Part shown: positions 50,539-59,799 of the stretch, one piece after another
Numbering within the stretch: the first letter of the stretch is position 1
Layout: each line of letters begins with the position of its first letter
Assembly: GCA_018434945.1 (NCBI GenBank)
Contig: JAHDOI010000029.1
Span: forward strand, 21,133-85,132
Source: Selenomonadales bacterium
GTDB taxonomy: Bacteria; Bacillota; Negativicutes; Sporomusales; UBA7701
Length of the DNA stretch: 64,000 nt
Reading direction: 5' to 3'
Translations under genes and position numbers: made by a program
Notes under the pieces: model-generated
What the model was told of the DNA's origin: nothing
The model's input: only the letters and a program-made list of their open reading frames with translations
Database searches by the model: none

Positions 50539-50639
50539 GTTTATCACTCTCCTGGCGTTTTCGTTATGCATTCGGGGAGAAGATTGCGTTATCCTGCTAA
50601 AAACACCGGCGCGCATCTGTAGGTCAAGACGGCGAATTA

Positions 50640-50665
50640 TGCAAAATTTGTTGACAATAGTTGCA
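50640..50665. promoter_or_regulatory. Candidate enhancer (UAS) for the sigma-54 regulator, site 1
   Basis: Perfect spaced dyad TGCAA n3 TTGT n2 ACAA n3 TTGCA, centred 99 bp upstream of the -24 GG of the promoter at 50750. A similar dyad stands at the same distance from the second promoter (54814). Confidence 0.7.
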
Positions 50666-50749
50666 CTGATATGCAATTTGGGGTTGGCTGAGAAGCATTC
50701 CCCGGACTGCGATTGCCGGCAGAGAAGCAATAGCGGCCGCTTCCCGGAG

Positions 50750-50765
50750 TGGCATGTTTCTTGCT
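50750..50765 (+). promoter_or_regulatory. Sigma-54 (-24/-12) promoter 1
   Basis: TGGCAT GTTTC TTGCT with 10 bp between GG and GC; fits TGGCAYG n4 TTGCW. Predicted start near 50776, 35 nt before the ATG at 50811. Confidence 0.8.
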
Positions 50766-50810
50766 TTGACCTATATTGCTCGTAAACATCTATTAGGAGG
50801 CAAATGAAGG

Positions 50811-51131
50811 ATGACAACGATTTCCCATATCCCGGATGAAATTGTCGAACAGGTCCTGCTCGACATCGCGATGCTGGTGGAAACCAAATACGGCCCGATG
50901 TTATCCGAAACGGAACTTTTCAACCTGAACAAATTGGACTCACTGCTTGGGGCACAGTTTATAATTGCCCGGCGAGCCAGGCTTGAAGGATACATGATCC
51001 AGGACTGCGATATGTGCTCGTCCTGGGACAAGGGGTTGCGATACTGCAATTACTACCATTTCCAACAGTCCAGTCAGATCAGGCTCGATTACTATTATCA
51101 GGCTTTATGTCCGGCACTTACGCTTAAGTAA
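50811..51131 (+). CDS. Unknown 106-aa cysteine-containing protein
   Basis: No family recognised. The N-terminal half is helical and acidic; the C-terminal half has C66, C69, C79 and C100 (QDCDMCSSWDKGLRYCNYYHF), which could bind metal. No membrane segment. AGGAGG lies 10 nt upstream. It is the first gene behind sigma-54 promoter 1 and is followed by another small unknown gene, so it is a probable target of the adjacent kinase-regulator pair. Confidence 0.75.
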   Translation: MTTISHIPDEIVEQVLLDIAMLVETKYGPMLSETELFNLNKLDSLLGAQFIIARRARLEGYMIQDCDMCSSWDKGLRYCNYYHFQQSSQIRLDYYYQALCPALTLK

Positions 51132-51152
51132 TACTAATATGAGGTGGAAAAG

Positions 51153-51335
51153 ATGATAGCTAGAGAAAAAGTCTCCGAAATGATAAGAGCTCAGTTGGCC
51201 TTGGCGACGGAAGATGTGGTTAACCGTTTGACTGACGATGTTGTCAGAGAGACCGAGCACACGCTATACTCACTTATAAGACAGTTTGTAGCCCATGAGC
51301 GGGAAATTGCGCTTGTCAAGCCAAAGGATAGGTAG
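51153..51335 (+). CDS. Unknown 60-aa helical protein
   Basis: Charged, wholly helical sequence (MIAREKVSEMIRAQLAL ... TEHTLYSLIRQFVAHERE), no cysteines. The ATG at 51153 is placed 5-6 nt after GAGGTGG; a GTG at 51144 overlaps the ribosome site. Same transcript as the 106-aa gene (21-bp gap). Function unknown. Confidence 0.65.
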   Translation: MIAREKVSEMIRAQLALATEDVVNRLTDDVVRETEHTLYSLIRQFVAHEREIALVKPKDR

Positions 51336-51579
51336 CCAACCGCAGTCGTTGTTTCAGCTCCGGCGGCTGGGGATAAAGCTTCTTAGCCGTGTCAAAGATA
51401 TCGGAGAGGCCGATGCAGAAGCCCCCAAACAAGGGGAAGGTGACAGGCACCGCCAAAACCGCTCCTGCCGGCAGCGCGATAATGGCTGACTTTACCGCCG
51501 GCTTAACCGTCACGGGAACAAGGAGATAATTCACAATGCGGTGAAATAACCTCAAGACAGTCGGCTTTACGGAGGAAAT

Positions 51580-53175
51580 GTGAAACGGTTACTTATTCTG
51601 CTGGTTATTCTGGTCGCAGGGCTTTCCCTTACCGCCGCCTTGGACCGCCTTTACTCCCGAAATGAATACGTCCGCCACCAAAACAACCTGGAATTGCTTA
51701 CAGAGAAATTCCAAAGCGTTGTCATGCATAGCCTGACCGACCTCACCGCGATCGGAGACTTGAAGGCGTTTCTGAACGCCCGCAGCGATCTGCCCGACAG
51801 GGACGCGTTCGATCGCTTCGCCGGTGAAGCGAAGCGATATTATCCTACAGTCACTTATTTCGGCTATGCACGCGAAAGCGGCGAAAGTCTGTATCTGCAT
51901 TTTACGACCGGGCAGCCAGGCTCCGAGAACGATGACCGCCCCGGGCGGTTACGCGCACTCGCAACAGTAGCGGAGGTGCGGAAGATGGCGATTTCAGATC
52001 CGTTTTACGCACGTGACCGACTCATAAGCATTGCCGTAGACCCGATTTACCGCGATGAGGCGCTAATAGGGTTCGCCGAGGTTCACTTCGATGTCGGCGC
52101 GATCTTCGATCAGGCAATGTACAATGTCGGTATCGACGATCAACGGTATTATATTCGTATCGCCGCCCCTGAAGGCAGGGTTTTTTGGGAGAAAGGGCTA
52201 ATTCCGGAAGAAGGCGAAAGTCTGGCCCGTAAGGTACACTTCCCGGTGGGTAACGCGTATTGGGATGCCACCGTATCATGGAAGACGTCGCCGGACAACA
52301 ACCTATACGTCCGCGGCATCATCTGGAGCAGCGGCTGTATCGTTACGTTGCTTCTGCTGGTAATCATTAACGTAGTCTGGCAGCGCCAGGCGTGGCTTAC
52401 CAAACAGGTCGACGAGAAAACGGCGGAGCTGATCCTCAAGAACAAAGCAATTATTGAGGCCAAAGAAGCACAGGTCCGCGTGGAAAAACTCTCATCACTC
52501 GGGTCGATGGCCGCGGGGGTTTCCCACGAGATCAACCAGCCGCTAAATTCGATCAAAATCTTATCAAGCGGTATTCTCTACTCGCTCCATAAAGGCGGGC
52601 GGTTCAATCCTGACGACATACGAAAAGTCGTAGAGGAAATCTCTCGCCAGGCGGACCGCATTTCGAGCATTATCAATCAAATGAGATCATTTATCCGTCG
52701 GGACAACAGCGCCCGGGTACCGTGCAACGTGAATGATGCCGTTAAACAGTCGCTGGGCTTGGTCGGGGCGCAGATTATGAACCATGGCGTCGAGGTGCGT
52801 CAGGAACTGTCTGGCAATCTCCCTGCCGTCCTGGTGCCCCCAACCGCTCTTGAAGAAGTGCTGGTCAACCTGCTTGTCAATGCCATGCAGGCTCTGGACA
52901 AGGTCGAACGGCCGGAAAAACAGATTATAATCCGTACCCGGTTTGAGGACGGGGTAGTGATTGAAGTTGCGGACAACGGCCCCGGGGTCAGCGAGGAAAT
53001 CCTTGATAAAGTCTTCGAACCTTTTGTCACTACTCATACCGGCGGCGACAACTGGGGACTCGGTTTATCGATCGCCCATGCGATAATAACAGCCTGTAAC
53101 GGCAATATCGACGTAAAGACCGGAGAGCGCGGCACAACATTTATGATCAGAATCCCGGCGGTTGCCGAATCGTAA
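51580..53175 (+). CDS. Membrane sensor histidine kinase of a sigma-54 system
   Basis: 531 aa. First membrane helix at about 3-21, an extracytoplasmic Cache-like sensor (about 25-245), second helix at about 248-270, coiled linker, then HisKA with H-box GVSHEINQPLNSIKI and HATPase (NLLVNAMQAL, VADNGPGVSEE, WGLGLSIAHAI). The H-box EINQPL is the DctB-like type, which typically partners sigma-54 regulators. GTG/ATG choice: the start MKRLLILL uses GTG after GGAGG. Ligand unknown. Confidence 0.92.
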   Translation: MKRLLILLVILVAGLSLTAALDRLYSRNEYVRHQNNLELLTEKFQSVVMHSLTDLTAIGDLKAFLNARSDLPDRDAFDRFAGEAKRYYPTVTYFGYARESGESLYLHFTTGQPGSENDDRPGRLRALATVAEVRKMAISDPFYARDRLISIAVDPIYRDEALIGFAEVHFDVGAIFDQAMYNVGIDDQRYYIRIAAPEGRVFWEKGLIPEEGESLARKVHFPVGNAYWDATVSWKTSPDNNLYVRGIIWSSGCIVTLLLLVIINVVWQRQAWLTKQVDEKTAELILKNKAIIEAKEAQVRVEKLSSLGSMAAGVSHEINQPLNSIKILSSGILYSLHKGGRFNPDDIRKVVEEISRQADRISSIINQMRSFIRRDNSARVPCNVNDAVKQSLGLVGAQIMNHGVEVRQELSGNLPAVLVPPTALEEVLVNLLVNAMQALDKVERPEKQIIIRTRFEDGVVIEVADNGPGVSEEILDKVFEPFVTTHTGGDNWGLGLSIAHAIITACNGNIDVKTGERGTTFMIRIPAVAES

Positions 53176-53189
53176 AGCGAGGTGCCTTG

Positions 53190-54665
53190 ATGGACATTCT
53201 AGTTGTCGATGACGACCGTGCGAGCCGTGAAGCGGCGAGCTGGTTCCTAAGCGTTGAAGGCCATCGCGTGACCACCTGCGCGAGTGGGGCCGAAGCCTTG
53301 GCGTTGATGGCCGGCGCCGATTACCCCATGGTGCTGTCGGACATAAAGATGTCGGGGATGTCGGGGCTTGAGCTTCTGGCGGCCATTAAGGCCCTGCCGG
53401 GAGGTTGGCGTACGGACGTCGTACTGTTTACCGGGTTCGGTGACATGGCGTCGGCCATTCAGGCGCTTCGTTCCGGCGCATACGATTACCTGCTTAAGCC
53501 GGTAGACGCCCAGGAACTGGCGGCGACTGCCGAGCGCATAGAGGAACACCAGGCGTTGCTGCGCGAGAACAGATACCTGTCCCAGAACATGGAACATGAG
53601 ATTAAAGCGGCTACCGCGGAAAAAGACCAGGAATTGTTTAGGGCAAAGAAACTCGTAACAGAGTCGTTTTTCGGGCAGATAGGCGTCTTTTCCGATAAAA
53701 TGCGCAGTGTTATCGCCCTTGCCCAAAAATATCATAACGACAGGTCTATCCCTGTCCTGATAGAAGGAGAAACCGGCACAGGCAAAGAGATTATCGCTCA
53801 AATCGTGCATTGGGGCGATATTCAGCGAGGGAATGACCCGGGACCTTTCATCGACATCAATTGCGCCGCCATCGCCCCAAGCCTCTTCGAAAGCGAACTG
53901 TTCGGTTACGAAGCGGGGGCGTACACCGGCGGGCAGAACAGGGGCCAAAAGGGGAAGTTGGACCTTGCTTCGGGTGGTACGCTGTTTCTGGATGAAATCG
54001 CCGAGATATCCCCCGAAATCCAAGGCAAATTGCTCAGGGTAATCCAGGAAAAAGAGTATTACCGGGTTGGCGGGCTGAAGAAGCTGCCGGCCGATGTACG
54101 CGTTATTTGCGCAACCAATGCAGACATGAAAAAAAACATCGAAGAGGGGAAATTTCGCCGCGACCTGTACTACCGCTTCCAGCTCGGCCATATAACCATC
54201 CCCCCCCTGCGCGAACGCCGCGAGGAGATAATACCGCTGGCTAATATGTTTTTGCTGCAGGGAGCCAGACAGCGTGGCCGGAAGTTTAAAGGCATCGGTG
54301 GCGAGGCCGCCAAAATACTGGAAAACTATGATTGGCCCGGAAACGTCAGGGAGTTGAAAAACGCGATTGAATTTGTTGTATTCATGTATGACGATACGGA
54401 AGTACGGCCCCATCACATCCAAAAACTCAACAGGATGACTATCGAGGATAACGCGGGAATAGTATCGCTACAGTCGGAAGAACCTAGGCTGTCCTTGCCT
54501 TTTCCGAAAGAGGGCTTTTCGCTGAAAGATTACACCGATTGCATCATCAAAGAGGTCTTGAACGCCCACAGCGGAAACCAGATGGCGGCCGCCACCTATC
54601 TCGGCATTTCTCTCCGGACTTTGGCTTATCGGATAGCGAAAACGAAAAAAACGGACAACAAGTGA
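53190..54665 (+). CDS. Sigma-54-dependent response regulator with variant GAYTGG loop
   Basis: 491 aa. Receiver domain (VVDDD, phospho-site D51 in VLSDIKMSG, LLKPVD), long coiled linker (110-165), AAA+ domain with Walker A GETGTGKE and GTLFLDEIAE Walker B. The sigma-54 contact loop near 245 is GAYTGG instead of GAFTGA. C-terminal Fis-type HTH (NQMAAATYLGISLRTLAYRIAK). ATG 53190 follows GCGAGGTG. It lies between two matched promoters and probably controls both. Confidence 0.93.
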   Translation: MDILVVDDDRASREAASWFLSVEGHRVTTCASGAEALALMAGADYPMVLSDIKMSGMSGLELLAAIKALPGGWRTDVVLFTGFGDMASAIQALRSGAYDYLLKPVDAQELAATAERIEEHQALLRENRYLSQNMEHEIKAATAEKDQELFRAKKLVTESFFGQIGVFSDKMRSVIALAQKYHNDRSIPVLIEGETGTGKEIIAQIVHWGDIQRGNDPGPFIDINCAAIAPSLFESELFGYEAGAYTGGQNRGQKGKLDLASGGTLFLDEIAEISPEIQGKLLRVIQEKEYYRVGGLKKLPADVRVICATNADMKKNIEEGKFRRDLYYRFQLGHITIPPLRERREEIIPLANMFLLQGARQRGRKFKGIGGEAAKILENYDWPGNVRELKNAIEFVVFMYDDTEVRPHHIQKLNRMTIEDNAGIVSLQSEEPRLSLPFPKEGFSLKDYTDCIIKEVLNAHSGNQMAAATYLGISLRTLAYRIAKTKKTDNK

Positions 54666-54701
54666 CGATACGAATATCTGCAGAAGATATTCGTATTTTC
54701 T

Positions 54702-54726
54702 GCAATTTTTCGCAAAGAACGGTTGC
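54702..54726. promoter_or_regulatory. Candidate enhancer (UAS), site 2
   Basis: Dyad GCAA n3 TTC n5 GAA n3 TTGC, centred about 101 bp upstream of the -24 GG at 54815. Same outer halves and spacing style as site 1 at 50640. Confidence 0.65.
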
Positions 54727-54795
54727 TCTCACAGATGTTATTGGTCGGCGGCAGTATCGGCAACCCCAATAGTATCGCGTACTGAGGGCGTTTTA

Positions 54796-54833
54796 AGCAA
54801 GACGCAGGCTTTATGGCATGCGTCTTGCTTTTT
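54796..54833 (+). terminator. Hairpin terminator that contains sigma-54 promoter 2
   Basis: AAGCAAGACGC (54796-54806) n13 GCGTCTTGCTT (54820-54830) then TTTTAC. Perfect 11-bp arms. The 3' arm includes the -12 element of the promoter at 54814. Confidence 0.8.
54814..54829 (+). promoter_or_regulatory. Sigma-54 (-24/-12) promoter 2
   Basis: TGGCAT GCGTC TTGCT, 10 bp between GG and GC, differing from promoter 1 only in the spacer. Predicted start near 54840, about 95 nt before the Rnk-like gene. Confidence 0.75.
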
Positions 54834-54935
54834 ACATCTAAAGAACCCGGAATGACTGGCGAAAGATCGCAATAGCAGTTGATTTCCCCCGGAAGGATAC
54901 ACGCGACAAGTACAGCGCGAGAAAGGACCGACGAT

Positions 54936-55349
54936 ATGCCAAGAAGGGTGTTCATTACAGATGCGGACAGGTCGAGACTCCTCAAATTCATCGGACGTGA
55001 GAGGGAGTTTGGCGGCGGTGACAGTGAAAACCTGGCGGATTTGGAGTGCGAAATAAAACGGGCGTGCATCTCGGCTACGAAAGATATCCCCCAAGACGCC
55101 GTGACAATGCATTCGACTGTGCAGTTGCGGGACTTGGACAGCGGCGAGGAGGTAATCTACACGTTGGTTTACCCGGCTGAGGCCGACCTGTCGGAAGGCA
55201 GGATATCCGTCCTCGCCCCCGTAGGGACCGCAATCCTCGGTTACCGGGTCGGCGATGTCGTCGAGTGGAATGTACCCGGCGGGATGGTACGCTACAGGGT
55301 TGAAAAGGTCCTATTTCAGCCGGAGGCCGGCGGCAAGCTTTTTCTGTAA
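54936..55349 (+). CDS. Rnk-like GreA/GreB C-terminal domain protein
   Basis: 137 aa. Short N-terminal helical part, then a GreA/GreB-type FKBP-like domain (MHSTVQLRDLDSGEEVIYTLVYP, APVGTAILGYRVGD, WNVPGG). It lacks the long coiled coil of true Gre factors, as in Rnk, which binds RNA polymerase. ATG 54936 follows GAAAGGA. First gene behind sigma-54 promoter 2. Confidence 0.88.
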   Translation: MPRRVFITDADRSRLLKFIGREREFGGGDSENLADLECEIKRACISATKDIPQDAVTMHSTVQLRDLDSGEEVIYTLVYPAEADLSEGRISVLAPVGTAILGYRVGDVVEWNVPGGMVRYRVEKVLFQPEAGGKLFL

Positions 55350-55389: not shown

Positions 55390-55755
55390 TTGGCGACTGA
55401 GAGAACCCCCTTGATGCCAGTAACGGATATGAAGGTCAATATCGACTATCTTGTAAACACTCTCGGTTTTAAACTGGACAACGTTTCCGCTGACGGCACC
55501 ACTGCAAAGCTAAGCTGCCAGGCGGCTTTGCTTATGCTGCAGACCGAGGTCGGTGACGGGCCGCCGGCGATGCGGGGGGATTTACCGGAGATCCAGGTAA
55601 GGGTTGAGGAGCTTGCGGAGGTCTACAAGAACGCTTTATCGCGGGGTGCAATCATCAGGCGGTACCTTGAGTTCGCCAAAACAGAAGCGGGCACCGGCAT
55701 AAGGCTTTTCACCGTGTCGTTGCCGGAAGGACAGCGCTTGACAGTAATTGGCTGA
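55390..55755 (+). CDS. VOC-superfamily (glyoxalase/bleomycin-resistance fold) protein
   Basis: 121 aa, TTG start 8 nt after GGGGAGG. PVTDMKVNIDYLVNTLGFKLD is the first beta-alpha-beta unit of a VOC module; LLMLQTE and GIRLFTVSLPEG complete it. Metal ligands are not conserved enough to name a reaction. 40 bp after the Rnk-like gene. Confidence 0.75.
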   Translation: MATERTPLMPVTDMKVNIDYLVNTLGFKLDNVSADGTTAKLSCQAALLMLQTEVGDGPPAMRGDLPEIQVRVEELAEVYKNALSRGAIIRRYLEFAKTEAGTGIRLFTVSLPEGQRLTVIG

Positions 55756-56028: not shown

Positions 56029-56466
56029 ATGGCGGATACCGGCAGTCTGGTGCGCCAACACGATGAAATAGTTGCGTTGTTCGCGGAACTGGCCAGCCAT
56101 GAACATGACCAGGACATAATGGACAATGCCATGGCGTTATCGTTAACCTTGAGCCAACTCGCCGCGAAAATGTACTTTCATATTCTGGCGGAGGAAAGGA
56201 TTCTGTATTCCGCCTTGCTCCTTAATAAAAGCGAATCTGTTCTGGCGAAGTGCGGAAAGTACTCGGCTGAGATGGACAACATCGTACAGAAGTTCAGAAG
56301 GTATCGGGCCGCATATTCACGCGCCAGCAAAATTATTGCGCGGCCGGACAAGTTTCGCCTTAACACCGCCCTTGTTGCCACAGTCATAATCAAAAGGTTT
56401 GAAAACGAACAACTGGGGCTCTACCCAATTCTGGAACGCCTTTGCCGCAATTACCATGATCTCTGA
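56029..56466 (+). CDS. Hemerythrin-like (HHE) protein
   Basis: 145 aa, four-helix bundle. RQHDEI near residue 10, FHILAEERILY near 57-67 and FENEQLGLYPIL near 127-138 follow the HHE pattern, although the last HxxxH is altered to E-rich residues, so iron binding may be changed. Likely O2, NO or iron-related. 15 bp before the AbrB gene. Confidence 0.75.
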   Translation: MADTGSLVRQHDEIVALFAELASHEHDQDIMDNAMALSLTLSQLAAKMYFHILAEERILYSALLLNKSESVLAKCGKYSAEMDNIVQKFRRYRAAYSRASKIIARPDKFRLNTALVATVIIKRFENEQLGLYPILERLCRNYHDL

Positions 56467-56481
56467 AAAGGGGAGTAATAC

Positions 56482-56739
56482 ATGACATCTACCGGCATTG
56501 TACGGAAATTGGACCGTGTGGGCAGGGTGGTGATACCCCACGAAATTCTTGGCTATTTGGGGATCAAAGTACATGACTTTATTGACATCTCTATCGACAA
56601 CAGCAATGTCGTCCTTCATAAATTTGAACCAGGCTGCGTGTTTTGCGGCAGCCATCGGGTAACAAGTGGCCATAAAGGAAAATTCATCTGCAGGGACTGT
56701 AGAATCCAGATACACTCTATCGCCCAAAATGTTTATTGA
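56482..56739 (+). CDS. AbrB/SpoVT-type swapped-hairpin regulator with zinc finger
   Basis: 85 aa. Residues 1-47 (GIVRKLDRVGRVVIPHEIL) are an AbrB DNA-binding domain; the C-terminal half carries C52xxC55 and C70xxC73, a small zinc finger. Transition-state type regulator; its place inside the run suggests local feedback. ATG follows AAAGGGGAG. Confidence 0.92.
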   Translation: MTSTGIVRKLDRVGRVVIPHEILGYLGIKVHDFIDISIDNSNVVLHKFEPGCVFCGSHRVTSGHKGKFICRDCRIQIHSIAQNVY

Positions 56740-56807: not shown

Positions 56808-58094
56808 ATGAGTAAAGCAAACTATAATGCTTATGCCGAGGCCAAGGCGCAATTCGACCAGGTGGCAGAGAAAATCGGTTTAGACGGTGCAACCCGCGAT
56901 TTTCTGCGGCAACCGATGCGCGAATACCATTTTTCCATACCCGTGAATATGGACGATGGGAGCAAGAAGATCTTCAGAGGATACCGCGTGCAACACAACG
57001 ATGCCAGGGGACCGGCCAAAGGCGGCATAAGGTTTCATCCGCTCGAAACGATCGACACTATCCGGGCGTTGGCAATGTGGATGACGTGGAAGTGTGCGGT
57101 TGTCGATATCCCTCTTGGCGGCGGGAAAGGCGGGATAATCTGCGACCCGCGCGGGATGAGCGACCGCGAGCAGGAGCAGTTGTGCCGCGGCTGGGTAAGG
57201 CAGATAGCCAAGGACATCGGCCCATGTATCGACGTTCCGGCGCCTGACGTCATGACAAACGCCAAGCACATGCTATGGATGCTGGATGAATACGAAACGA
57301 TACACGGCGGCAGATACCCCGGCTTCATCACCGGCAAACCGGTAGGCATGGGCGGTTCTCTCGGGCGGAAAGAGGCCACCGGATTTGGTGTTATCTACGT
57401 GCTCAGGGAAGCCATGAGAGAACTGAACATGAACATCAAAAACAGCACCGCCAGCATACAGGGCTTCGGCAACGTCGCTCAGTACGCGGCAAAGTTATAC
57501 CAACAGCTGGGCGGGAAAGTAATCGCCATATCCAGTTGGGACAACACCGATCAGCAAGCGTATACCTTTCGTAAAAAGGAAGGGTTTGATTCCACCGATT
57601 TGGAAGCCATTACGGATCCCTTCGGGAGCATTGACAAGGAAAAAGCCAGCGGCTTAGGCTACGAGATTCTGCCGGGTGGCGCATGGATCGAGCAGAACGT
57701 GGATGTCCTGATTCCCGCCGCGCTGGAAAACCAGATATCTGCTGAAAACGTCCACCGGATCAGCAAACAGGTCAAGATCGTCGCCGAGGGAGCGAACGGG
57801 CCGACAAGCAGAGATGCCGACAAGGTGCTTGCGGAGCGCGGCATATTTGTTATCCCCGACTTCCTGGCAAACGCGGGTGGAGTCACCTGTAGCTACTTCG
57901 AGCAGGTACAGTCCAATACCAATCACTATTGGGAAAAAGATGAAGTGATTCAAAAACTGGATACCAGAATGACCTCTGCCTTCCAGGCAGTGATAGATCT
58001 GGCCAGGCAGAAAAAAATGCACATGCGCGACGCCGCTTACACGATCGCTATCGACCGCGTCGTATTTGCGATAAAAAGCAGGGGTTGGGTGTAG
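56808..58094 (+). CDS. gdhA: Glutamate dehydrogenase (Glu/Leu/Phe/Val family)
   Basis: 428 aa. PLGGGKGGIICDP includes the substrate lysine, PAPDVMTN the catalytic aspartate region, and IQGFGNVAQYAAKLYQQLGGKV the dinucleotide fold. Interconverts glutamate and 2-oxoglutarate with ammonium. ATG 56808 follows GAGGAGG; the upstream open frame is ignored. Placed in a sigma-54-headed run, consistent with nitrogen or amino-acid control. Confidence 0.95.
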   Translation: MSKANYNAYAEAKAQFDQVAEKIGLDGATRDFLRQPMREYHFSIPVNMDDGSKKIFRGYRVQHNDARGPAKGGIRFHPLETIDTIRALAMWMTWKCAVVDIPLGGGKGGIICDPRGMSDREQEQLCRGWVRQIAKDIGPCIDVPAPDVMTNAKHMLWMLDEYETIHGGRYPGFITGKPVGMGGSLGRKEATGFGVIYVLREAMRELNMNIKNSTASIQGFGNVAQYAAKLYQQLGGKVIAISSWDNTDQQAYTFRKKEGFDSTDLEAITDPFGSIDKEKASGLGYEILPGGAWIEQNVDVLIPAALENQISAENVHRISKQVKIVAEGANGPTSRDADKVLAERGIFVIPDFLANAGGVTCSYFEQVQSNTNHYWEKDEVIQKLDTRMTSAFQAVIDLARQKKMHMRDAAYTIAIDRVVFAIKSRGWV

Positions 58095-58120
58095 AAGTGA
58101 CGGTAGGGAGGCTAGCTCAG

Positions 58121-59005
58121 GTGAAGGGATCCCCTGCCGAGGTGGAAAGCCTGCTCAGCACGCTCAGGGAAAGGGAAAAGGAACTCGACTGTTTATACAA
58201 AGTTGATGAAATACTAAACGACCAACAGCTGCCGTTGCCCGAAATATTCGCGGCACTCGTCGATGTTATCCCTTCGGGCTGGAGATTTCCGGAGCTTTGC
58301 CGGGCAAGTATCACCTTTCAAAATCGCCTCTATCGGGCTGCCGACTTCATCGCCACACCTCTGACCGAGAGCTGCCTGATCAAAACCGACGGACAAGCCG
58401 TTGGCAGCATCGAGGTAATATATCTGGAGAGTGTACCGGAAACTGCCGAAGGGTATTTCCTCGACAAAGAGCGCAAACTTATCAGGACAATCGCGGACCG
58501 AATCGGACAATTCATTTTCTACAGGGACATGAAACTCGTTTTGGATGAACTGAATACCTCCCGAAGTGACCGTACGGCAGGTGACGCGATGTACGGGGAG
58601 TGCGATTACCGGCAGACCGACAGTCAGGAGTGGCGCTGGCGCCAGCACATGGCTGAACGCCTGGCGGCATCGCTCGATTCGCAGCATTTCGGGGTGAAGT
58701 CGGTATACCTGTTCGGCAGCACAAACGACGGAACGGCGGGTCACAGAAGTGATATCGACCTGATAATTCATTTCGAGGGGGCAGAATCGCAAAAGACGGA
58801 ACTTTTCCACTGGCTTGAAGGGTGGAGCCTGTGCCTGGACGAGGTCAACTATTTGAAAACAGGTTACCGCATGAACGGGTTGTTGGACGTACACATGATT
58901 ACCAGCGACGACATCGCCCGGAAGACCTGTTTTGCGATCAAGATCGGCCTCGCCACAGATCCCGCCTGCCGGCTGAAAACGAAAGACGAAGTGTTCTGCG
59001 GTTAG
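58121..59005 (+). CDS. GAF-like sensor fused to a nucleotidyltransferase
   Basis: 294 aa. Residues 1-145 (LREREKELDCLYKVDEIL ... RLYRAADF, IADRIGQFI) resemble the GAF-like sensor found before PEP-synthase-type or kinase proteins. Residues 175-290 carry a polymerase-beta-type nucleotidyltransferase core, VYLFGSTNDGTAGHRSDIDL, with the GS motif and the DxD metal pair. GTG 58121 sits 9 nt after GGGAGG; TTG 58085 (overlapping gdhA) is possible. Might nucleotidylate a protein in response to a small molecule; target unknown. Confidence 0.8.
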   Translation: MKGSPAEVESLLSTLREREKELDCLYKVDEILNDQQLPLPEIFAALVDVIPSGWRFPELCRASITFQNRLYRAADFIATPLTESCLIKTDGQAVGSIEVIYLESVPETAEGYFLDKERKLIRTIADRIGQFIFYRDMKLVLDELNTSRSDRTAGDAMYGECDYRQTDSQEWRWRQHMAERLAASLDSQHFGVKSVYLFGSTNDGTAGHRSDIDLIIHFEGAESQKTELFHWLEGWSLCLDEVNYLKTGYRMNGLLDVHMITSDDIARKTCFAIKIGLATDPACRLKTKDEVFCG

Positions 59006-59288: not shown

Positions 59289-59322
59289 TTCCGCGAATTA
59301 ATTTTCTGTGGGGGTGTACGGG

Positions 59323-59799
59323 GTGAGAAGAAGCGACTTGGCGATGCCGCATGAAGAAGCCTTGGCCCTTGTCGATGCGCAGGAGTACGCGGTGCTGTGC
59401 CTGATCGACCCGACCGGACGACCGTACGGCGTTCCGCTGGACTATGTCCGCAGAGGCGATTTCCTTTACTTCCACGGCGCCCGGGAAGGAAGAAAAACTG
59501 ATTCCATGCTGGCTAATCCCCGGGGTTGCGCGGTGATTATGGGAACGACAACGGTCATTCCCGAAAAGTTCGGCAGGGTGTATCAATCGGCAATTGTCGA
59601 GGGGCCGATCGAACTGATCGACGAACCGGAGCAGAAAAGACAGGTTATGACCTGGGTGGTCGAAAACAGGAGCCCCGGCTACCGCGAAAAGGGACAGGCG
59701 GTCATTGAAAGGATGCTGGACCGCGTCCTTGTATATAAAATGAAAATGGAAAACACCGCTGGGAAACACGGACTTTCAGTGAGTAAGGCTCAGGGCTGA
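59323..59799 (+). CDS. Pyridoxamine 5'-phosphate oxidase-like (NimA-type) flavin-binding protein
   Basis: 158 aa, split-barrel fold. MRRSDLAMPHEEALALVDAQEYAVL, GRPYGVPLDYV and YFHGAREGRK match the NimA/PNPOx-like family. GTG 59323 is chosen because family members start MRRxD and GGGGGTG precedes it by 6 nt. Probably binds FMN, heme or F420; nitro-reducing or redox role. Confidence 0.88.
   Translation: MRRSDLAMPHEEALALVDAQEYAVLCLIDPTGRPYGVPLDYVRRGDFLYFHGAREGRKTDSMLANPRGCAVIMGTTTVIPEKFGRVYQSAIVEGPIELIDEPEQKRQVMTWVVENRSPGYREKGQAVIERMLDRVLVYKMKMENTAGKHGLSVSKAQG

Follow-up and report, generated by a model that had tools for sequence, protein, structure and literature searches.

A predicted two-component sigma-54 locus associated with glutamate dehydrogenase genes in a Selenomonadales bacterium

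Described sigma-54 activators and the present locus

The control of a glutamate dehydrogenase gene by a sigma-54 activator is known from Bacillus subtilis, where rocG is under the control of RocR and SigL, the locus contains several -12/-24 promoters, and the RocR site for rocG is located 1.5 kb downstream of the promoter (PMC4941409, in excerpts). A locus that resembles the one in these excerpts, in that a sigma-54 activator occurs together with a glutamate dehydrogenase gene and several -12/-24 promoters, is described here from a 64,000-nucleotide stretch of DNA (the window) belonging to contig JAHDOI010000029.1 of a Selenomonadales bacterium. Domain matches bear out an arrangement put forward in a preliminary description of this DNA, wherein a histidine kinase and a sigma-54 response regulator are located between two predicted sigma-54 promoters, P1 and P2. 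RocR is a one-component activator that has its own sensory domain and lacks a receiver. In contrast, the present locus encodes a two-component pair in which the receiver is present, and its predicted sites are found upstream of each promoter, such that the locus is not of the RocR type.

The closest known two-component sigma-54 systems are DctB-DctD and MifS-MifR. The locus differs from DctB/DctD, which controls an adjacent dicarboxylate transporter, in that no transporter was found among the 10 cluster proteins scanned. The regulator also scores below the curated NCBIfam values for AtoC (352.6 of 714 bits), NtrC (325.7 of 558.6 bits), PrdR (302.3 of 795 bits), and ZraR (279.4 of 760 bits).

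A survey of Clostridiales, as excerpted, distinguishes 39 regulon groups of enhancer-binding proteins (EBPs) and reports a promoter consensus of TTGGCATNNNNNTTGCT, a Fis-type helix-turn-helix (HTH), upstream sites that are mostly 100-250 bp away, and activators that usually adjoin their targets; 44 of the activators (~10%) are two-component (PMC6615313). The present locus shares with the regulons in these excerpts the promoter consensus, the Fis-type HTH, the upstream sites, and an activator near its targets, and the terms glutamate dehydrogenase and Negativicutes are absent from the main text of the survey. A study based on statistical enrichment counts glutamate dehydrogenase (COG0334) as one of the chief targets predicted for sigma-54 in Bacillota; the enzyme class is held in common with the present locus, while a system of the present kind was not found in the excerpts of that study (PMC12316311). 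The type of system is already known, and what appears from sequence to be new, as far as the literature searched extends, is this member, its targets, and the overlap of a terminator with a promoter. Consistent with the preliminary description, the literature searched for this gene combination gave no description of it.

Promoters, upstream elements, and the P2 hairpin

The comparisons favor a two-component sigma-54 switch, in which the regulator is predicted to bind copies of TGCAANNTTTG and would, rather more probably than otherwise, activate both its own operon and the genes running from Rnk to glutamate dehydrogenase. This analysis is based on sequence, and P1, P2, their upstream elements (elements 1 and 2), and the hairpins are all predictions. 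Four genomes carry the gene set: the window genome (G000), G002 and G004 from the same genus, and G005 from the same family; all counts out of four include the window. All of the features described lie on the forward strand unless stated otherwise.

P1 (50750..50765) has the letters TGGCATGTTTCTTGCT and P2 (54814..54829) the letters TGGCATGCGTCTTGCT; both are present as previously quoted. The strict promoter pattern TGGCAYGNNNCTTGCW has five matches in the 3.8-Mb genome, compared to none for the control (the pattern read backwards), and two of the five are P1 and P2, located 4 kb apart. A looser sigma-54 pattern finds 16 sites in the genome, compared to three for the control, and one rpoN gene was found in this genome. 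The earlier proposal of two matching promoters conserved in relatives stands in full for P1, as TGGCAY-N5-TTGCW is kept at this position in 4/4 carriers, and in part for P2, which has these letters in the window, G002, and G004, all of one genus.

Upstream of P1 in all four carriers is a 40-bp element (element 1, 50640..50679) of the form TGCAA-N16-TTGCR-N6-YGCAA plus flank. It contains three TGCAANNTTTG-type sites and a core dyad, TTGCACTGATATGCAA, at 50661-50676. The preliminary description had drawn a dyad with GCAA and TTGC as its outer arms at 50641-50664, letters that are indeed present. This dyad is the left part of element 1; its outer arms are kept in 4/4 carriers, only the window and G002 have exact inner TTGT/ACAA arms, and the conserved core is instead TTGCR-N6-YGCAA. 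The center of the core dyad precedes the GG of the promoter by 82.5 bases in the window and G004, 94.5 bases in G002, and 121.5 bases in G005, such that the spacing between element 1 and P1 differs from that of the window by 0, 12, and 39 bp among the relatives. In alignments, P1 and element 1 are conserved islands, and the DNA between and around them has diverged. A candidate activator site 80-150 bp upstream, as expected for a sigma-54 promoter, is found at element 1 in 4/4 carriers and is less firmly supported at element 2.

When a matrix was built from three of the elements and used to find the fourth, element 1 was the top match in the whole 17-19 kb in 4/4 runs (36.4-47.2 bits, with the next match at 13.8 bits or below). 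Across the window's genome, the core dyad is matched exactly at one place and with one mismatch at three more, these three all on contig C42, compared to two for the reversed control. A metagenomic frame, P0008, starts upstream of the first gene of the cluster (ORF1, for open reading frame 1) and runs through the region. Its back-translation fits element 1 at 37/40 letters (in the G004 version; next offset 25) and P1 at 18/18 (next 15), with a spacing between element and promoter that equals that of the window within one base. This frame is compatible with a fifth case of element 1 plus P1, at reduced resolution. Auto-activation at P1 is well supported by these sequence comparisons.

Upstream of P2, a candidate element 2 (54672..54711) contains two outward-facing TGCAANNTTTG sites separated by an 18-bp gap, the left arm being weak in the window. 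A 16-bp dyad matrix and the 40-bp element 1 matrix were tried as finders of element 2 and rejected, as their results were mixed and unconvincing; a half-site matrix was built instead, using letters from the 12 half-sites of element 1 only (consensus TGCAATTTTTG, 11 bases wide). With this matrix, the half-sites of element 2 score 15.2 and 12.2 bits in both G002 and G004, and 7.2 and 14.3 bits in the window. Outward pairs of at least 7 bits number exactly two in the 17 kb of G002 and of G004, one at element 1 and one at element 2 in each case; in the 64 kb of the window there are four, of which three are at element 1 and one is at element 2, and G005 has two, both at element 1. None of 2000 column-permuted matrices reaches the three-genome sum, and none of the 160-bp control windows (those ending at most 400 bp from P1 or P2 having been left out) reaches the element 2 pair score in G002 (0/382) or G004 (0/382). 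Most of the letters of element 2, including the loop, are conserved across the three genomes. The second dyad of the preliminary description (54702-54726) reads as quoted in the window; its left part, GCAA-N3-TTC, is kept in 3/3 genomes, its right part, GAA-N3-TTGC, in neither of the two same-genus relatives (0/2), and as a conserved site it was rejected, being absent from G002 and G004. Of the idea that the regulator binds both dyads, what is retained is the presence of shared motif copies upstream of both promoters; the dyads in the precise form proposed are not supported, the second least of all.

The P2 letters have a further feature that had been overlooked: 54814-54829 makes up the 3' arm of an inverted repeat of 12 bp, after which comes a T run, so that P2 lies within the 3' part of a terminator-type hairpin (54795..54834; 12-bp stem and T run). 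This region has the stable, GC-containing stem followed by a T run that characterizes an intrinsic terminator, and by this prediction it would be expected to end the transcript of the regulator operon. A pattern scan did not list this hairpin, probably owing to its loop limit of 8. The predicted stability is -25.1 to -25.3 kcal/mol in the window, -25.7 in G004, and -17.7 in G002 (z -8.5, -5.5, and -4.7, respectively), and all 36 pair cells across the three genomes are standard, with one pair changed on both sides. Covariation was set aside as evidence; the double-changed pair is reached by 179 of 500 shuffles, and therefore the stem is supported by stability, not by covariation. When the 16 sigma-54-like sites of the genome are compared, the hairpin at P2 ranks first in stability, followed by that at P1 of the window (-17.4, z -2.2) and then by one at -12.7. 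It is not unique, as P1 of the window folds too, and P1 of G005 is found in a strong hairpin (contig L118, 4535-4585; AGAAGCGTGC / GCATGCTTCT; -19.6, z -4.3) with element 1 upstream. No strong hairpin is seen at P1 of G004 (z -1.0) or G002 (z -0.7).

Alternative explanations

The hairpin provides the chief alternative for P2, namely that 54795-54834 does no more than terminate the kinase-regulator operon, the match to the -24/-12 pattern is a coincidence of stem and T run, only P1 depends on sigma-54, and the Rnk-glutamate dehydrogenase genes start in some other way. This alternative is judged unlikely, although several observations speak for it: the stability and standard pairing of the hairpin in 3/3 genomes, its rank among the sigma-54-like sites, and the fact that the P2 letters overlap it, such that pairing alone could preserve most of them. 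P2 is also missing from G005, where ~138 bases separate the regulator and Rnk genes, and sigma-70-like sites are found between Rnk and glutamate dehydrogenase in G005 (11/12) and G002 (10/12). However, the letters ATGG, located outside the shared 12-bp stem, are invariant in 3/3 genomes, and on the 5' side of the loop every column except one varies, a pattern that a terminator by itself would not call for. The rarity of the strict pattern and the TGCAANNTTTG sites at the expected distance upstream also argue for a promoter, and in 4/4 genomes the stretch from the regulator gene to the Rnk gene gave no sigma-70-like site. Furthermore, because P1 of G005 combines element 1 with a strong hairpin, a hairpin on a -24/-12 site is no argument against a promoter here. 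Sigma-70-like sites, which are also found between P1 and the kinase gene in the window (10/12, at 51241) and in G004, count against the two-component switch, though such matches occur no more often than expected by chance (11 vs 7.5 +/- 3.3). The kinase-regulator pair probably requires a basal promoter.

If both P1 and P2 are sigma-54 promoters, the regulator could still act at P1 alone, with P2 responding to a different activator and the motif copies ahead of P2 belonging to a terminator; this possibility is considered less likely again than the previous one. The gap between the arms is 18 bp at element 2 vs 6 bp at element 1, and therefore one dimer would not bridge both alike. The 16-bp dyad matrix misses element 2 of G002 (letter-shuffle fractions of 0.05 in the window, 0.24 in G004, and 0.87 in G002), the 40-bp matrix gives a similarly mixed result at P2 (0.03, 0.40, and 0.01, respectively), and the scarcity of the core dyad in the genome points the same way. 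Element 2 also overlaps an inverted repeat, a possible weak terminator, directly after the regulator stop codon (54668..54696); this repeat could be just a terminator, and the arms of element 2, being paired within it, are not independent. The half-site result itself is weakened by the width of 11 bases, chosen after both elements had been inspected, and by the window, where the left arm scores 7.2 bits and controls equal the pair score in 4 of 406 windows and 6 of 2000 permuted matrices. Set against this possibility are the half-site matrix test in the relatives with its column-permutation control, and the conservation of most of the letters of element 2, including the loop. A third alternative, that element 1 belongs to a short coding sequence (a frame from the ATG at 50639) and is no binding site, is highly improbable. 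The frame runs on without a stop in the window and in P0008, but the same frame stops after 23 codons in G004, there is no third-position excess among the differences between genomes (by eye), and inspection of the window by eye shows no ribosome site upstream; the reading of the differences and the early stop led to its rejection.

Returning to the two-component switch, other points also weigh against it. The carriers are few and mutually related, and the sigma-54 contact loop of the regulator is not GAFTGA but GAYTGG in 3/4 orthologues and GAYTGS in the fourth (G005). GAYTGA is named as a working variant of this loop in excerpts of the Clostridiales survey, and GAYTGG is not among the variants named there (PMC6615313). 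Half-site matches above 10 bits are also found within 250 bp upstream of 3 of the 14 other sigma-54-like sites (contigs L002, L003, and L188), and at least one of these sites, that on L002, adjoins another activator gene (by eye). These matches may be further targets or may reflect a motif of low specificity, and the locus may not be the fully self-contained regulon that had been proposed.

One of these sites, on L003 (259-403), belongs to a chemoreceptor gene with a strict sigma-54 site and two half-site-like copies of CGCAAATTT that start 114 and 129 bases upstream. Among the six genomes searched, which did not include G004 and G005, the gene's closest relative is from G001 and has neither a canonical promoter nor the sites; G001 has no ORF1 match and no end-to-end kinase match. 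This single case is consistent, at the sequence level, with the chemoreceptor gene as a third target.

Weighing these alternatives, the conserved two-component sigma-54 locus is judged from the comparisons to be real, and it appears probable that the glutamate dehydrogenase cluster is jointly controlled through P2. The chances are about even for a more specific proposal, in which one 40-bp stretch would have two roles: as RNA it would be the terminator of the auto-activated regulator transcript, and as DNA its 3' arm and T run would be the sigma-54 promoter of the next operon. Feedback and output would be separated at those base pairs, and one regulator would recognize differently spaced copies of the half-site.

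The gene set and its proposed function

Neighborhoods of 17-19 kb were searched around the cluster in the relatives, and the full 64 kb in the window. The order ORF1-kinase-regulator-Rnk-glutamate dehydrogenase-nucleotidyltransferase is conserved in 4/4 carriers (with the nucleotidyltransferase in two pieces in G005). An end-to-end kinase match is found in 4 of 60 genomes among the matches listed, window included, and these are the four carriers. Several other genomes (G022, G024-G027, G033, and others) were not counted as carriers, as their kinase match is in two pieces (sensor, 27-30%; kinase part, 50-54%), and the remaining same-genus genomes, G001 and G003, have neither ORF1 nor an end-to-end kinase. 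Two Cloacimonadota contigs with relatives of the regulator (L037 and L038, 46-47%) were likewise rejected as instances of the cluster, the only neighboring genes resembling the set being kinase-domain matches on L038 (23-27%). The groEL gene is directly upstream of the cluster in the window, and the 17-19 kb searched in each of the other three carriers did not contain it; therefore, the gene set seems to keep together in different surroundings. In G004, a fragment of 30 residues (67%) directly upstream of ORF1, on the reverse strand of contig L116, resembles a window gene located downstream of the cluster (59308-59799).

The small genes following P1 are as previously described. ORF1 (50811..51131) encodes 106 amino acids with no family match, and its four cysteines (C66, C69, C79, and C100) are invariant in 11/11 aligned sequences, suggesting a possible metal or iron-sulphur site. 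The predicted structure was not used due to a mean predicted local distance difference test score (pLDDT) of 46. ORF1 is found in 6 of 60 genomes and in 6 of 380 genomes of the class, comprising the four carriers plus G006 and G008, which have ORF1 homologues without this kinase-regulator pair and no -24/-12 site that could be seen by eye upstream of them. In G006, which belongs to a different family of this order, the homologue of ORF1 and an Rnk-like gene are head to head on contig L126 (6351-6746 and 6845-7357), and a different kinase and regulator follow ORF1 (by eye). As this arrangement occurs without the present pair, the link between ORF1 and Rnk is independent of the cluster. ORF2 (51153..51335, 60 amino acids) is present in 3/4 carriers.

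The membrane histidine kinase (51580..53175) contains HisKA and HATPase_c domains and a predicted Cache/CHASE-like sensor domain on the outside, spanning residues ~27-238. None of the fold matches listed for the sensor domain names a ligand, and the predicted Cache-type fold would be compatible with an amino acid or a small organic acid as the signal. The response regulator (53190..54665) is made up of a receiver, a sigma-54 AAA+ domain with the GAYTGG loop, and a Fis-type HTH, with Pfam matches above cut-off for Response_reg, Sigma54_activat, and HTH_8. The HTH stretch YLGISLRTL is identical in 4/4 carriers.

Downstream of P2, the earlier outline of a run from Rnk to hemerythrin holds for its start, the Rnk/GreA-C-terminal-like protein (54936..55349). 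It needs to be extended to the genes for glutamate dehydrogenase (56808..58094) and a nucleotidyltransferase-domain protein (58085..59005), which are found in 4/4 carriers, and the hemerythrin-like gene (56029..56466) is present in only 2/4. Between these lie a gene for a glyoxalase/VOC-like protein (55390..55755; family match below cut-off; 3/4 carriers) and one for a small protein (56482..56739) with a partial, sub-cut-off SpoVT-N-terminal match, found in the window only (1/4). The glutamate dehydrogenase of the cluster, 86-91% identical among the carriers, is confined to them (4 of 28 genomes of the order, with the next best match at 48%). Because of this, and given hemerythrin in 2/4, the constant partners of the regulator are the enzyme genes rather than the hemerythrin gene. 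The nucleotidyltransferase gene adjoins that of glutamate dehydrogenase in 4/4 carriers, overlapping it by 10 bases in the window, and its product might modify the dehydrogenase; no solved relative was found by sequence at an E value of 0.01. In G005, the two pieces of the nucleotidyltransferase match (L118, 10254-10751 and 12894-13424) are ~2 kb apart, perhaps reflecting an insertion or a second related gene.

The locus as a whole suggests the following mechanism. An outside signal would be read by the kinase, resulting in phosphorylation of the regulator. The regulator would oligomerize on element 1 and drive sigma-54 polymerase at P1 to transcribe ORF1, ORF2, the kinase, and the regulator, generating positive feedback. 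On element 2, the regulator would act at P2 to turn on the genes for Rnk, VOC, hemerythrin, the small protein, glutamate dehydrogenase, and the nucleotidyltransferase. Finally, the hairpin containing P2 would stop the P1 transcript, insulating the two units such that the output of the enzymes would be set by P2 alone.

These findings offer a circuit that can be tested, in which a two-component sigma-54 system would control glutamate dehydrogenase in relatives of Sporomusa; no such system was found for them in the literature searched. The circuit would also tie the four-cysteine ORF1 protein and the Rnk-like protein to amino-acid metabolism. Under the proposal of one stretch with two roles, the hairpin at P1 of G005 would point to the embedding of sigma-54 promoters in terminators as a design that recurs within this family. 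If true, the overlap of promoter and terminator would be a compact means of insulating neighboring operons.

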